A DNA stretch of 64,000 bases, from assembly GCA_026125285.1 (NCBI GenBank), contig JAHCLO010000004.1, positions 62,001-126,000 on the forward strand, read 5' to 3'. The translations under genes were made by a program, and so were the position numbers. This DNA comes from Verrucomicrobiia bacterium (GTDB taxonomy: Bacteria; Verrucomicrobiota; Verrucomicrobiia; Limisphaerales; JADLHS01). The notes beneath the pieces were generated by a model that had not been told where the DNA came from, ran no database searches, and was given only the letters and a program-made list of their open reading frames with translations. Shown here piece by piece: positions 15,822 through 56,820 of this stretch (the first letter of the stretch is position 1; every line of letters starts with the position of its first letter).

Positions 15822-17351
15822 TCAAAGGTTGGGAAACGACATGGTCAGGTCAAGCTCGTCGCCGAATTCCTTTTGCAGCACGAGCAGTCGCCGAAACAAT
15901 CTCTGCTTTGTCGCCTGGTACGCAGAATCGTCGGCCAGGTCTGTGAGTTCGGACGGGTCCTCCGCCAGATGATACAGCCGCGCCGCTTTGGCTTTGGGAT
16001 AGAGGATCAACTTCCAACCTTCGTGAATGATGGCGCGCTGGAGATCGAGATAGGCGCCGCAAATGGCCTCGCGCCGGGCGGGCGACGATTCCCCGCGCAG
16101 CAACGGCAGCAGACTATGGAAGCCAACGTGTGCTGGCTTCTGCACACCTGCCAACTCCAGCGCTGTGGGCATCACGTCCTGAAGGTAAATCGGGGCAGAA
16201 ATCCTTTGGCCAGCTTTCACGCCCGGCCCAACCACCATGAACGGCACGCGCAAGCTGTGATCATACAGGTTTTGTTTTCCGAACAATCCGTGATGTCCCA
16301 CTGCCAGTCCGTGATCGGCGGTGAAGAAAATCCACGTGTTCTCCGCCAGTCCATTGGATTCGAGGGTGTCGAGTACGCGGCCAATTTGCGCGTCCAGGTG
16401 CGTGATGAGCGCGTAGTATTCCCGGCGATGCACCTTCACCGCGTGCTCCGTGCGTGGGAACGGCGCCAGCCGTTCGTCGCGCAATCCAGGGCCGCAACCC
16501 ATGGCATCCTGGTGCGGATACTCTGGCAGAAAGTTTACTGGCACCTGCACGCGGTCGAGCGGGTATTGATCCACGTATTTCTGGGGCGACTGCCGCGGAT
16601 CATGCGGCGCGTTAAAGGCCACATACATGAAGAACGGTTCGCTACGCTGCCGTGCTTCGCCGAGAAACTCGATGGCATCCTCGGCCGTCACTTCACTCCA
16701 ATGTTTGCCACCCTCCCAGAAGCCGCCGAACTTCGAGTCGGACGGACTCCATGGATCGGGCTGATTGGCGAGCGGACGATTGTAGCCTGTGGGCACGTCT
16801 TGGGGCATGCCGGGGCGAATGTGCTTGGCGACGTTGAACGTCCTGGCGGCATCCGTATTGATGTGCCACTTGCCGGTGAAATAGGTGCGGTAGCCCCGGC
16901 CTTGGAGCAACTGCGGCCACAATCGGCCAGCAGTGCGTTCCTGGTCGGTGGTGTGGTAGATGGCTTGGGCGTGCCATAAGCTGCGTCCCGTGATCAGCAT
17001 GGTGCGACTGGGAATACAGACCGCGCCGCTCCACGAACCCATGTTGTAGGCATGGGTGAAGGTTGTCCCGCGCGCCGCCAACCGGTCGAGATTCGGCGTG
17101 TCAATGTCCGTATGCCCAAACGCGCGCACCGTCTCGAAGCTCTGATCGTCGGCGAACAGAAACAGAAGGTTGGGCGGTTTGGCGATGGGAGTGTTCGATT
17201 GTTCGGACCTCGATCCGGCAGGCAAGGCTTGCGAATGGACCGAGCTTGGGGAGGTCAGTGCCAACGCGACCAACACGGGCAGCGCAATGTTGCCCTGAAA
17301 AAACGCGGCGCTGGCCCGCTTGCTCCAACAGGTTTGCTTGGGCAGTGTCAT
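15822..17351 (-). CDS. Secreted sulfatase (iduronate-2-sulfatase/choline-sulfatase-like)
   Basis: A 509-residue sulfatase, first gene of the minus-strand run. The start at 17351 (MTLPKQT) puts a hydrophobic signal segment at about residues 20-35. Canonical CIPSR lies in SGAVCIPSRTMLITG. Metal-binding blocks are LLFLFADDQSFETVRAFG and FFTADHGLAVGHHGLFGKQN. The latter, with its second ADHG site, is typical of the subgroup holding iduronate-2-sulfatase and choline sulfatase. The short C-terminal region carries the usual LYHLAEDPSELTDLADD block. It probably removes sulfate from oligosaccharides in the periplasm or outside the cell. Confidence 0.92.
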   Translation of the reverse strand: MTLPKQTCWSKRASAAFFQGNIALPVLVALALTSPSSVHSQALPAGSRSEQSNTPIAKPPNLLFLFADDQSFETVRAFGHTDIDTPNLDRLAARGTTFTHAYNMGSWSGAVCIPSRTMLITGRSLWHAQAIYHTTDQERTAGRLWPQLLQGRGYRTYFTGKWHINTDAARTFNVAKHIRPGMPQDVPTGYNRPLANQPDPWSPSDSKFGGFWEGGKHWSEVTAEDAIEFLGEARQRSEPFFMYVAFNAPHDPRQSPQKYVDQYPLDRVQVPVNFLPEYPHQDAMGCGPGLRDERLAPFPRTEHAVKVHRREYYALITHLDAQIGRVLDTLESNGLAENTWIFFTADHGLAVGHHGLFGKQNLYDHSLRVPFMVVGPGVKAGQRISAPIYLQDVMPTALELAGVQKPAHVGFHSLLPLLRGESSPARREAICGAYLDLQRAIIHEGWKLILYPKAKAARLYHLAEDPSELTDLADDSAYQATKQRLFRRLLVLQKEFGDELDLTMSFPNL

Positions 17352-17447
17352 GCGGCGAGGGTAAGGCCATAACGACATCGCTCGCAAACCTGTCTTGCGA
17401 TGCGCGACAGCCGGGCAACATTGTATGAGACGATATTGGGAGTCTCT

Positions 17448-17608
17448 CCCTCACCTTTCGTCACTCTCCCGCCGGGAGAGATTTCTCCCAACCCAAGTTC
17501 GCGCTTTGGCCACCCGAAGCGTAGCCGCCGACGTGAGAAGGCGGATTCCTCTGAGCTGTAACGATGTCCGCCTCCTACCGTCGGCGGCTACGAGCATAGG
17601 GTTCATGG
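17448..17608. repeat. Extended repeat A copy 2, containing a GTAG-type palindrome
   Basis: The palindrome 17521-17591 has 25-base arms starting GTAGCCGCCGACGTGAGAAG and ending CGTCGGCGGCTAC. It is preceded by a CTCCCGCCGGGAG hairpin and the shared stretch TTCGCGCTTTGG. The whole unit recurs at 19721-19870. The right end is GGTTCATGG (17600-17608). The intergenic region 17352-18202 holds only repeats. Confidence 0.85.
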
Positions 17609-17644
17609 GTAGCCTCCTTTCTCTTGTTAAAGCATGCCTTGGGA

Positions 17645-17779
17645 CCATGAACCTGATGTGGGACAGGCTTTCCAGCCTGCCGGTTCCCCGGACTTTCCAG
17701 TCCGGGGTGCCAACGGGCGACTGGAAAGTCGCCCGCACCGGCGGACAGGAATGTCCACCCTACATCGCGAGGTTCATGG
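17645..17779. repeat. Element E: four consecutive hairpins with a TTCC/GGAA centre
   Basis: Bounded by CCATGAACC (17645-17653) and GGTTCATGG (17771-17779). Inside are CAGGCT-TTCC-AGCCTG (17664-17679), CCCCGGACT-TTCC-AGTCCGGGG (17686-17707), GGGCGACT-GGAA-AGTCGCCC (17715-17734) and GGACA-GGAA-TGTCC (17743-17756). Confidence 0.85.
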
Positions 17780-17815
17780 AAAGCCTCCAATCCCGAAATC
17801 GGGCGCGCTCTGGAA

Positions 17816-17965
17816 CCATGAACCGGAGCACTGTCAGTCCCGCGCGGAGAGCGGCGCTGAAGACGCACGCACTCCAGACGCTTCGCGAGCTTTCAGCGTC
17901 AAGTACCCTCGCGAAGCGTTTGGAGTGCGGCTGATTCATCGCCGCTTTGGGCGAAGGGGTTCAGG
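17816..17965. repeat. Element B copy 1: long palindrome
   Basis: Bounded by CCATGAACC (17816-17824) and GGTTCAGG (17958-17965). The central hairpin has 21-base arms, 17869-17889 and 17908-17928 (GCACTCCAGACGCTTCGCGA and its complement, one mismatch). Outer complementary GCGGCG/CGCCGC segments extend it. A second copy is at 19535-19660. Confidence 0.85.
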
Positions 17966-18000
17966 AAGCGTTTCCACGATTTCCGAATCGCGCAGCGGCG

Positions 18001-18099
18001 CCATGAACCGTAGTGGTGGCTCGGCAGAGCGCCGCATACTGGCTGCGGTGGGAATGGCGGCGCTCTGCCGAGACGCCGCTACGACGCAAAGGTTCGTGG
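18001..18099. repeat. Element C: GTAG-type palindrome
   Basis: The arms at 18010-18035 and 18057-18082 are 26 bases with three mismatches. They begin GTAG, end CTAC and contain a perfect CTCGGCAGAGCGCCGC core. The element is bounded by CCATGAACC (18001-18009) and GGTTCGTGG (18091-18099). Confidence 0.85.
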
Positions 18100-18202: not shown

Positions 18203-19189
18203 TTAATAGTTGAACATGGGCCGCCCGTTGGCGAAGAGGATGTAGCCAGTGCGTTCGAGATACCAATTGAAATCCCGTCGGCCTTCGGCATCAAACCCCA
18301 TGGTACTCGGATACGCGTACTGCACGCGCGTGTATTTGGAAGTGCGGCTCTGCCACTTCTTGATTTCTGAATGGCCGTCCGCAAACGAGAATCCGCACGC
18401 CCCGTTGTGATAGGAAGCGGGAATATCCTGCCACGCGCTGGCACTTGGGTTATTGATGAAGTAACCGTCATTGATCGAGTCCGCGTGTTCGTCAATGAAC
18501 AGCCAGGTTTTGGCGGGACGAGGTACTTGCGATTGCTTCAGATACTGCCGGTATTCCTGGAAGCCCCAGTTCTGGCCGTTGAATGTTGGGTCACCAGTAG
18601 GGATACTCCGGAAACGGCCAAAAATCGAATTCATCGCCAGACTGCGTACACGTTGATCGAATCCGGCGATTTTCTGCACCGGGCTGAGGTAGTTGTCCGC
18701 CGGGCATTTGTAAACGCCGATCGTGGCGGCCGTGTACTTGCCCAAGACGCCGCTGACAATCCACTGTCGGTTGGTGTTGCTGCGGTCGTTAACGGATCCA
18801 CTCGCGCCCCAAGTCATGACATTGTTCACCCAATTGTCGAGCGCACCATTGTTGATCGCCTCGATCGTTTCGGCGACGCCGTAGTTGTTGGGGACGCGGT
18901 CATCGGAGTCGCCGTTGTAAAGATGCCAAGCGAGGGTGAGTTGTTTAGTGTTGTTCAAGCAGCCGATGCCTTGCGCCTTGGTTTTGGACTTGGCGAGCGC
19001 CGGCAACAACATGGCGGCGAGAATGGCAATGATGGCAATGACCACCAGCAGTTCGATGAGGGTGAAGCCGCGAGAACGGCGACCGATGTGGTTTGAGCGA
19101 CGAGTTGGCGCGAGCGTGGTATCCGCAGACTTCCCGTTCGCCTTTAGTTTGCGTGGTTGCATAATACGCGAATCGTTACGACGAAACAT
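18203..19189 (-). CDS. Type II pseudopilin-like protein (prepilin N-terminal motif, H-x9-DG type C-terminus)
   Basis: About 328 residues from an ATG at 19189, which has AAGGGG ten bases upstream; 19162 is an alternative start. A basic leader of about 50 residues precedes the prepilin peptidase site [20 protein letters not shown], whose Gly-Phe junction and Glu at position 5 are canonical. The transmembrane helix continues into the [18 protein letters not shown] block. The C-terminal region contains [20 protein letters not shown], typical of the very large pseudopilin families of Verrucomicrobia and Planctomycetes. Expected product: a membrane-anchored, processed pseudopilin, perhaps of a type II secretion or surface system. 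It stands alone, with repeats A, B, C and E on both sides. Confidence 0.93.
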
Positions 19190-19534
19190 ACACAGACCGC
19201 CCCTTCCTGGCCAGTAGCATTTTTCGGACGCTTCGCTGTTTTCGGCGGTATCAATCCGCACTGCTCAAAATTTTGGCCGCGAATGGGCCTGTCCCCGCTC
19301 CCAGCGGGGACCGGGGTGAAGGCGGGCCAAACCACAAACTGGACCAACTGGGAAGGAAGTTTGATGGACGCTCGCCCTCATCCCGGCCTTCTCCCCCAGG
19401 AGAAGGAGTATACGAGTGACGTTCGAGCTTCACGAGATGCCCGACGGCTGTCCCCCTCCGCAGGGGGAGAGGATCAGCGTGAGAATTCTCTGAACAGCTT
19501 CGCGCGGGGAACCCTTGGACCGGCGAAGCATCGG

Positions 19535-19660
19535 TCCCGCGCGAAAAGCGGCGCTGAAGCCGCGCGCACTCCAGACGCTTCGCGACCTTTCCACGTCAAC
19601 CAACCGCGCGAAGCGTTTGGAGTGCGGCTGATTTATCGCCGCTTTGGGCGAAGGGATTTA
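19535..19660. repeat. Element B copy 2: long palindrome
   Basis: The perfect or near-perfect 19-base arms are at 19566-19584 and 19607-19625 (GCACTCCAGACGCTTCGCG and the complement). The flanks GTCCCGCGCG, GCGGCGCTGAAG and GCCGCTTTGGGCGAAGGG match copy 1. The CCATGAACC/GGTTCATGG border is not conserved here. Confidence 0.82.
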
Positions 19661-19720
19661 ATGGGAGGGCGGGGATGGCACGAGCAGAATCCGAATCATG
19701 CAAAACGCCCGATTGCCGTC

Positions 19721-19870
19721 CCCTCACCGCGGGGGGAGAGAGATTTCGCCGAATCCAAATTCGCGCTTTGAACCCCCGAACCGTAGCCGCCGACGTGAGG
19801 AGGCGGATTCCCCAGAGCTGCAACGTTTTCCGCCTCCTCACGTCGGCGGCTACGAGCGAAGGGTTCGGGG
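19721..19870. repeat. Extended repeat A copy 3, containing a GTAG-type palindrome
   Basis: The palindrome is 19783-19853 (71 bases, 25-base arms, GTAGCCGCCGACGTGAGGAG to CGTCGGCGGCTAC). It is preceded by the same GAGAGATTTC and TTCGCGCTTTG segments as the unit at 17448-17608. Confidence 0.85.
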
Positions 19871-52009: not shown

Positions 52010-53070
52010 CGTGTGGATTCGAGCGGCGTGCGGAGAGCTTTGTCCGCGTGTTTGTCGTGCGGGGGCTGCGGACTCGCGGACAAGGCTGTCCGCGCTCCGA
52101 CGTTTACTCCGCCGCTTGGCGAAAGCTTCGCTGTAGTGAGCGCCGGCGTCCTTCCGGCGGCACCCAGCGACTCGCATTTCTTCGCGACCAGTTCGGCGAA
52201 CTCATTGATGTAGGTCCGGCCCGGTTGCATGAAATCAAATTCACCCGGACAATCGCGAAAGAACTCACGATGCACCCGCGTCCAGAGGAGCCGGCCATCG
52301 GTGGCGATGTTCACCTTGGCGACGCCGAGCGCAATCGCCTGGGAAAGTTCGGCTTCGGAAACACCGCTCGCGGAGGAATCGAATTCGCCTCCAGCTCTGC
52401 GGAGGCGTTCGATTTCGTCGCGAGGCACCGCGGAACCGCCATGCAGCACCAAGGGGAAGCCTGCGAGCCGGCGGTGGATTTCCGCCAGCATGTCCAGATG
52501 CAGCCGCTGGTTGCCGGAAAACTTGTAGGCACCGTGACTGGTGCCAATGGCCACGGCCAGACTGTCACAGCCAGTGCGCGCGACGAATTCCTCCGCCTGA
52601 GCCGGGTCGGAGAGCAACGCGCCTTTTGCCTCCGCAGAGGGCTCGTCCTCGACGCCTTGGAGTTGGCCCAACTCCGCTTCCACCGCAATGCCCTGCGGGT
52701 GCGCTCGCTCAACCACGCGGCGGGTGACGGCGACATTCTGCTCGAACGGCAGATGAGAGGCATCAATCATCACCGAACCGTAATGCCCGGATGCAATAGC
52801 TTGCGCGCAACTGGCTTCGTCGCCGTGGTCGTGATGCACGGCGAAGGTAACTTCCGGGTAAACCATCTCTGCGCCGCGCAGCAATTGTTCGAGCATGAGC
52901 GGATGGGCGTAGTCGCGCATCACGCGGGTGAACTGGACGATGATTGGCGCGCGGGCGGCTGCCGCGCCGCGGAACAGGCCGTGGAACTGTTCAAGGTTGC
53001 ACACATTGAATGCGCCCAGCGCGTAACGACCGCGAGCCGCGTGGAGCAATTCAAGAGTGGCAATGCGCAT
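52006..53070 (-). CDS. iolJ: Class II aldolase (6-phospho-5-dehydro-2-deoxy-D-gluconate aldolase) with a repeat-derived tail
   Basis: A 354-residue class II aldolase, about 50 residues longer than usual. Start MRIATLELLHAARG at 53070. Zinc ligands are in VTFAVHHDHGDE; VMIDASHLPFEQN, VEAELGQLQGVEDE, AVAIGTSHGAYKF, LVLHGGSAVPRDEI and VNIATDGRLLW follow in the expected order. It splits 6-phospho-5-dehydro-2-deoxygluconate to dihydroxyacetone phosphate and malonate semialdehyde; fructose-bisphosphate aldolase is the alternative. The last 50 residues (after KKCESLG) have no homology and are a translation of hairpin repeats at 52040-52155. First gene of the iol operon. A 900-codon open frame extends upstream antisense to the UroD gene and is not coding. 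Confidence 0.9.
   Translation of the reverse strand: MRIATLELLHAARGRYALGAFNVCNLEQFHGLFRGAAAARAPIIVQFTRVMRDYAHPLMLEQLLRGAEMVYPEVTFAVHHDHGDEASCAQAIASGHYGSVMIDASHLPFEQNVAVTRRVVERAHPQGIAVEAELGQLQGVEDEPSAEAKGALLSDPAQAEEFVARTGCDSLAVAIGTSHGAYKFSGNQRLHLDMLAEIHRRLAGFPLVLHGGSAVPRDEIERLRRAGGEFDSSASGVSEAELSQAIALGVAKVNIATDGRLLWTRVHREFFRDCPGEFDFMQPGRTYINEFAELVAKKCESLGAAGRTPALTTAKLSPSGGVNVGARTALSASPQPPHDKHADKALRTPLESTR
52040..52155. repeat. Hairpin repeat DNA inside the 3' end of iolJ
   Basis: Contains CGCGGACA-AGGC-TGTCCGCG (52075-52094) and a GCCGGCG/CCGGCGG hairpin near 52141-52162. The same CGCGGAC/GTCCGCGCTCCG type of hairpin occurs at 23385-23409. The repeat is read in frame as the C-terminal tail of the aldolase. 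Confidence 0.65.
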
Positions 53071-56744: not shown

Positions 56745-56820
56745 GTAGGGCGCGTCACTCCGTGCGCGCCGCAAAGAGAGTTCGTTCTCGCCCCGGCGCG
56801 CACGGAGTGACGCGCCCTAC
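56745..56820. repeat. GTAG-type palindrome D with perfect 27-base arms
   Basis: The arms are 56745-56771 and 56794-56820, starting GTAGGGCGCGTCACTCCGTG and ending ACGGAGTGACGCGCCCTAC, with a 22-base loop and no mismatch. It lies between the DUF1638 start and the DUF1080 stop, 2 bases from the former. Confidence 0.92.

Follow-up and report, generated by a model that had tools for sequence, protein, structure and literature searches.

Architecture of the array in the window

How four different palindromes came to lie in a row between the same two short borders is the question raised by this locus. The window, which is the whole stretch of 64,000 nucleotides analysed, carries a sulfatase gene (15822–17387) and a prepilin-type gene (18203–19261), both on the minus strand, and the array (17468–18099) occupies the intergenic region between these co-directional genes. 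The four palindromes that the first-pass annotation had described are present at 17520–17592, 17655–17766, 17868–17929, and 18009–18083. The starting border CCATGAACC was found at 17645, 17816, and 18001, as had been reported, and the end border GGTTCATGG is exact at 17600 and 17771 and differs by one base at 18091 (GGTTCGTGG) and by two bases at 17958 (GGTTCAGGA). To the left of palindrome A2, we found a degenerate second border (GCTTCGGGTGG on the minus strand, about 17510–17520). The spacers had been described as 36–37 nt long and sharing AGCCTCC, which does not apply to the third one (34 nt, lacking AGCCTCC); these spacers are the conserved tails described below.

Read on the minus strand, the array consists of four head-to-tail units in the order C, B, E, and A, and each unit comprises CCATGAACC or a variant of it, a palindrome set off by a few bases on either side, GGTTCATGG, and approximately 36 nt leading to the next CCATGAACC. 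Unit 1 begins with a 5′ head arm at 18091–18099 (CCACGAACC on the minus strand) and encloses REPIN C (18010–18082), a head-head pair of REPs GTAGCGGCGTCTCGGCAGAGCGCCGC; its tail (17958–18009, GGTTCATGGCGCCGCTGCGCGATTCGGAAATCG...) ends in the 5′ head arm of unit 2. The interior of unit 2 is the long palindrome B (17825–17957, with a core at 17868–17929 and CGCACTCCAGACGCTTCGCGAG arms), and its tail (17771–17824) ends in the 5′ head arm of unit 3 (CCATGAACC). Unit 3 encloses E, a palindrome with four hairpins (17655–17766, GTAGGGTGGACATTCCTGTCC...), and its tail (17600–17653, GGTTCATGGTCCCAAGGCATGCTTTAACAAGAGAAAGGAGGCTACC) ends in the 5′ head arm of unit 4. Unit 4 encloses REPIN A (A2, 17521–17592), a head-head pair of REPs GTAGCCGCCGACGTGAGGAGGCGG, and its tail, which is of the A/B type (17468–17520, GCTTCGGGTGGCCAAAGCGCGAACTTGGGTTGGGAGAAATCTCTCCC), runs into a GGGAGAG palindrome. 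As single-stranded DNA, the array strand folds far more stably than shuffled sequences do (z = −17.7). A second small cluster lies on the minus strand at 19472–19855 and contains a framed B (19566–19625, tail from 19521) and a framed A (19783–19853, tail from 19782).

Families F, A, and G are also represented in the window by unframed REPINs or REPs (56745–56820, 2502–2571, 52025–52099, and 23385). When the sulfatase was used as the query in a single scan of the genome contigs, distant relatives only were obtained; its closest matches belong to Verrucomicrobiota and Planctomycetota. One protein of the window matched the Verru_Chthon model with a score below the cut-off, and these matches together make Verrucomicrobiota the likely phylum.

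The frame and its directional tail

An HMM of the tail was built from the spacers in the window. The search gave the directional consensus GGTTCNNGGnnnCnATGCGCG...GAAnCTCYCC and detected 87 copies in 2.05 Mb of the window's genome (E ≤ 1e-4), a density that is somewhat inflated because the sample includes stretches picked for holding such repeats; the reversed sequence gave no match at E ≤ 0.01. The whole genome contains at least 128 tails. A strong palindrome lies directly upstream of 68 of the 87 tails, compared with 4 of 300 random positions. The unit is therefore a head formed by hairpin arms plus a tail, with the palindrome inside the head. We refer to this unit, the head CCATGAACC[interior]GGTTCATGG followed by the conserved 36-nt tail GGTTCNNGGnnnCnATGCGCG...CTCYCC, as the frame, and it lies on the minus strand in the window. 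The borders had been taken for the outermost arms of each palindrome; they are instead the stem of an independent directional element. A search of the 7.16-Mb genome for border pairs, as the first-pass annotation had proposed, found CCATGAACC-N(60–90)-GGTTCATGG at 8 places against none for the reversed control pattern, which indicates that the pairing is not due to chance.

The tails have a mean identity of 62%, 63 of the 73 classified by position are intergenic, and neighbouring tails within 260 bp point in the same direction in 30 of 33 pairs. Counted by region, the strand of the tail was the same as that of the flanking genes in 13 cases, opposite in 10, between divergent genes in 7, and between convergent genes in 5, which shows no bias. 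RNAalifold gave no consensus secondary structure in the tail. The lack of both a gene-orientation preference and a consensus fold favours a DNA element over an RNA. With respect to replication, tails were divided 8 to 13 between strands that the GC skew is too weak to define reliably. No copy-by-copy covariation was found between the head arms, where a within-family shuffle equalled or exceeded the observed value in 547 of 1000 trials.

A Shine-Dalgarno sequence with an ATG start in the tail and border (AAAGGAGG...ATGAAC) was rejected; it occurs in E-type tails only and is not conserved. Tails frequently lead into another, separate repeat, CTCTCCC..GGGAGAGGG..GGTGAGGG (window 17440–17500, C1:355242, and L003), and at C1:355242 the unit seems to be placed in the loop of that repeat.

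REPIN families and palindromes inside the frame

A, C, and E of the array and F elsewhere in the window consist of short hairpins that carry a GTAG-like tag (GTAG or GTGG) and are arranged as head-head REP dimers with the tags outside (GTAGCCGCC..GGCGGCTAC, GTAGCGGCG..CGCCGCTAC, and GTAGGGCGCG..CGCGCCCTAC); they are REPINs. Family G is similar and has a GGAG tag. Interior B, a longer palindrome containing CACTCC/GGAGTG arms, carries no GTAG tag and is therefore classed only as a palindromic repeat. The families have 9–47 copies each in the 2.05 Mb, and each is present in many genomic copies, some bordered and some not. The flanks of the unframed REPINs of framed families are not conserved. The occurrence of these families outside the frame indicates that frame and REPIN are separable repeats. 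The array had also been interpreted as one whose interior diversifies, an idea that finds no support here, since the interiors are distinct repeat families that are found elsewhere without the frame.

One type of tail can follow different REPINs: the C-type tail stands after G at L005:1586 and C14:117996, and the A/B-type tail stands after F at C23:336500 and C4:154735. Family C joins the head through at least three to four left junctions (TCGA-type, TGAGTCC, TTTGCGT/GTTCCGT, and TCC), which indicates several events. Within families one junction dominates, which means that framed copies also multiply jointly with their REPIN.

REPINs of family F often occupy a second, different frame, TGACAAACAAAT..GAGACNAGG-[F]-CGCAGGATGTATCGAAACTTCTTTGTCGCGGTGCC (flanks at C4:71781, C2:40840, and C14:116287, for example), of which two near-empty copies were seen in G000 (C45:128241 and C15:35512). 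Repeated GGTTCTCCCCACCCGCGTGGGGATGGTCCG units in G000 (C12:254343–257004) are probably a CRISPR array.

Occurrence of the frame and of empty heads in relatives

Of 57 genomes from the order, 18 contain tails, with a patchy distribution; a search with stricter filters of 194 other genomes sampled from the phylum gave none, and the frame is best read as order-specific. The search of relatives that had been suggested was positive, since the frame recurs in genomes of the same order with other palindromes inside. G100, G160, and G143 carry it around palindromes such as GTAGTCCCGCCTTTAGGCGG, and the G100 frames also hold the families F and G known from the window's genome. A strict pattern for empty heads gave 12 matches in 5 of 245 genomes and no match in the reversed control. 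G101 has six copies at unrelated loci of the empty head CCATGAACC-TGTCA-GGTTCATGG (TGATA in one copy), the loop of the empty head is CTCTCA in G050 and AACCA in G143, and further empty heads were seen in L243 and L312. The window's own genome yielded no clean empty head, its copies nearest to empty being C23:47808 and L003:1205–1280.

Repeated insertion at a fixed border, as had been proposed, is largely borne out by the many further loci, the unrelated interiors, and the empty heads in related species, except that the border belongs to the host repeat. The empty and filled heads compared come from different loci or from different species, and no allelic pair of the two was found. The only genome of the same genus, G001, has different neighbours at the array site and is not syntenic, and the G100 relatives are too divergent (only approximately 70% identical), with contigs that end at the site.

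Several further forms were seen in relatives. Near-identical empty frames starting with CAGCAGTTCTGCCC and mostly continuing into a GGAGCGCG REPIN lie at unrelated loci of G101 (L254, L259, L261, L264, and L265) and are a recently active form. In some relatives the head surrounds long perfect palindromes, CTCCCAAACTTTGTCGCATATGCGACAAAGTTTGGGAG for instance, and not GTAG REPs (L240, L248, and L250). At L312 (G100 C12), the palindrome CCTAATGCCTTTCGGTAATTTCAA..TTGAATTACCGAAAGGCATTAGG is nested in another REPIN, which is itself framed.

A matched empty and filled loop in G100

One empty head in G100 reads GAACC-TGGCTCCTGT-GGTTC, and three filled heads read, with point differences, GAACC-TGGCTCC-AGGAGCGCGGCG...GCGCTCC-TGT-GGTTC. 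When the filled heads are joined at CT on both sides, the empty loop results exactly. The TnpAREP enzyme cleaves at CT or CA (PMC8266576), and the CT join fits RAYT chemistry. The same trace would be expected from a deletion between the GCTCC direct repeats. The pair thus supports RAYT action without proving it, and is equally compatible with insertion and with excision.

RAYT genes

RAYT genes are present in the window's genome. The one at L015 scored above the NCBIfam cut-off for REP-associated tyrosine transposase and is flanked by family G REPs. Among the families checked, G is the only one with a cognate RAYT flanked by the same REP; none was found for A, C, E, or F in this 95%-complete genome. 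A tail lies within 1.5 kb of 1 of 41 PF01797 loci in 8 genomes, and on this count of adjacency to RAYT genes the frame itself does not behave as a RAYT-mobilised MITE would. At L018 (G000 C37:20687), a Y1_Tnp-like match lies inside an open frame of 1531 amino acids, possibly an insertion or fusion of a REP/RAYT within a large coding gene.

Discussion

We consider it probable, at roughly two chances in three, that the block consists of four head-to-tail copies of a dispersed, order-specific frame, the loops of which have been repeatedly colonised by unrelated palindromic repeats, mostly REPINs. The frame recurs across the order with different contents or with none, and therefore resembles a natural site at which short mobile DNA can dock. 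REPINs may enter or leave the head loop as single-stranded hairpins, and the enzymes that cut these hairpins at CT or CA dinucleotides would be transposases of the RAYT type (Y1/HUH). Chaining head to tail may reflect the pyrimidine-rich CTCYCC in which each tail ends and which precedes heads. What the data show is the architecture, copy number, and direction of the frame, its conservation at the level of the order, interiors that differ between species, empty heads, and one matched pair of empty and filled loops; the enzyme, the direction of change (by insertion or by excision), and the frame's own means of spread are inferred. More speculatively, the head could be a conserved docking hairpin with an exposed loop that several RAYT/REPIN systems across the order prefer as a target and use reversibly, so that the frame would endure while successive families settle, depart, and replace one another in the slot; we regard this extension as tentative.

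A reading close to that of the first-pass annotation is that frame and interior form one composite miniature transposon, with the borders or the tail as its ends and the interior moving along. Such a unit would account for the single junction and family-typical tail of most framed copies of a family, for blocks such as A-E and B-C that recur at several loci, and for the near-identical frame copies of G101. It is nevertheless unlikely, given interiors without frames and frames without interiors, one tail type behind different families, several junctions within one family, and the single RAYT locus of 41 with a frame beside it. The recurring composite blocks, together with the other repeats (GGGAGAGGG...GGTGAGGG) that adjoin the arrays, could also be expected of a passive BIME-like mosaic in which REPs and other extragenic repeats are gathered by recombination between repeats, without insertion preference. 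Interiors of unrelated families at one fixed position of the frame in many genomes and the almost always unidirectional chaining make this improbable.

A structured RNA or 3′-UTR device, in which the palindromes would serve as interchangeable stabilising hairpins, agrees with the intergenic position between two co-directional genes in the window and with the extreme folding. This explanation appears very improbable to us, because the tails show neither a strand bias to flanking genes nor a consensus structure, and Rfam gave only sub-gathering, miRNA-like chance matches to the palindromes, so that membership of an Rfam RNA family was rejected.

Colonisation of a shared frame, our preferred reading, bears on a process that the literature describes as poorly understood, namely REPIN dissemination (PMC8266576). 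Little is known of the sites at which REPINs insert or of whether it is RAYTs that move them, and the frame offers hundreds of natural sites with one defined sequence, empty or differently occupied. The matched loop of G100 joins at a dinucleotide that RAYTs are known to cut. The target choice of RAYTs is thereby directly testable with short oligonucleotides. Furthermore, the nesting of REPs in palindromes, noted in three genomes in 2013, can be order-wide with one shared host element.

Among known systems, an integron attC array was rejected since its core sites RYYYAAC and GTTRRRY are not matched by CATGAAC and GTTCATG, and a CRISPR array was rejected since the tails average 62% identity and the "spacers" are dispersed palindromic repeats. 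The BIMEs of enterobacteria are likewise mosaics, in which conserved linker motifs connect clustered REPs, whereas here the linker is an independent element of the whole order and has the REPs inside its head. The double inverted repeats, or TIRs, of TIRtrons (PMC3733652) resemble the array in joining REP-like units to unrelated stem-loops repeated in the genome, but the frames do not flank transposase genes. Families A, C, E, and F agree with the REP/REPIN and RAYT (TnpAREP) systems of the GTAG super-family, being GTAG- or GTGG-tagged head-head hairpins that are intergenic and of high copy number in a genome with RAYT genes; they differ in that many copies lie inside a second conserved directional repeat common to unrelated REP families. 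We found no paper in which the border sequence appears together with REP terms. The closest likeness in having a REP dimer mid-way in a longer palindrome is to the cases reported by Di Nocera et al. 2013 (PMC3733652), which are A. variabilis GTAG-15, T. roseum GTAG-23, and H. neapolitanus CGTC-1. One REP family was reported per palindrome in that study, and the unlinked target was not found in A. variabilis and H. neapolitanus, whereas here many families share one frame that has a directional tail, forms head-to-tail chains, and also occurs empty. REP dimers inside palindromes are thus already known, and what appears to be new is a single frame common to unrelated families.
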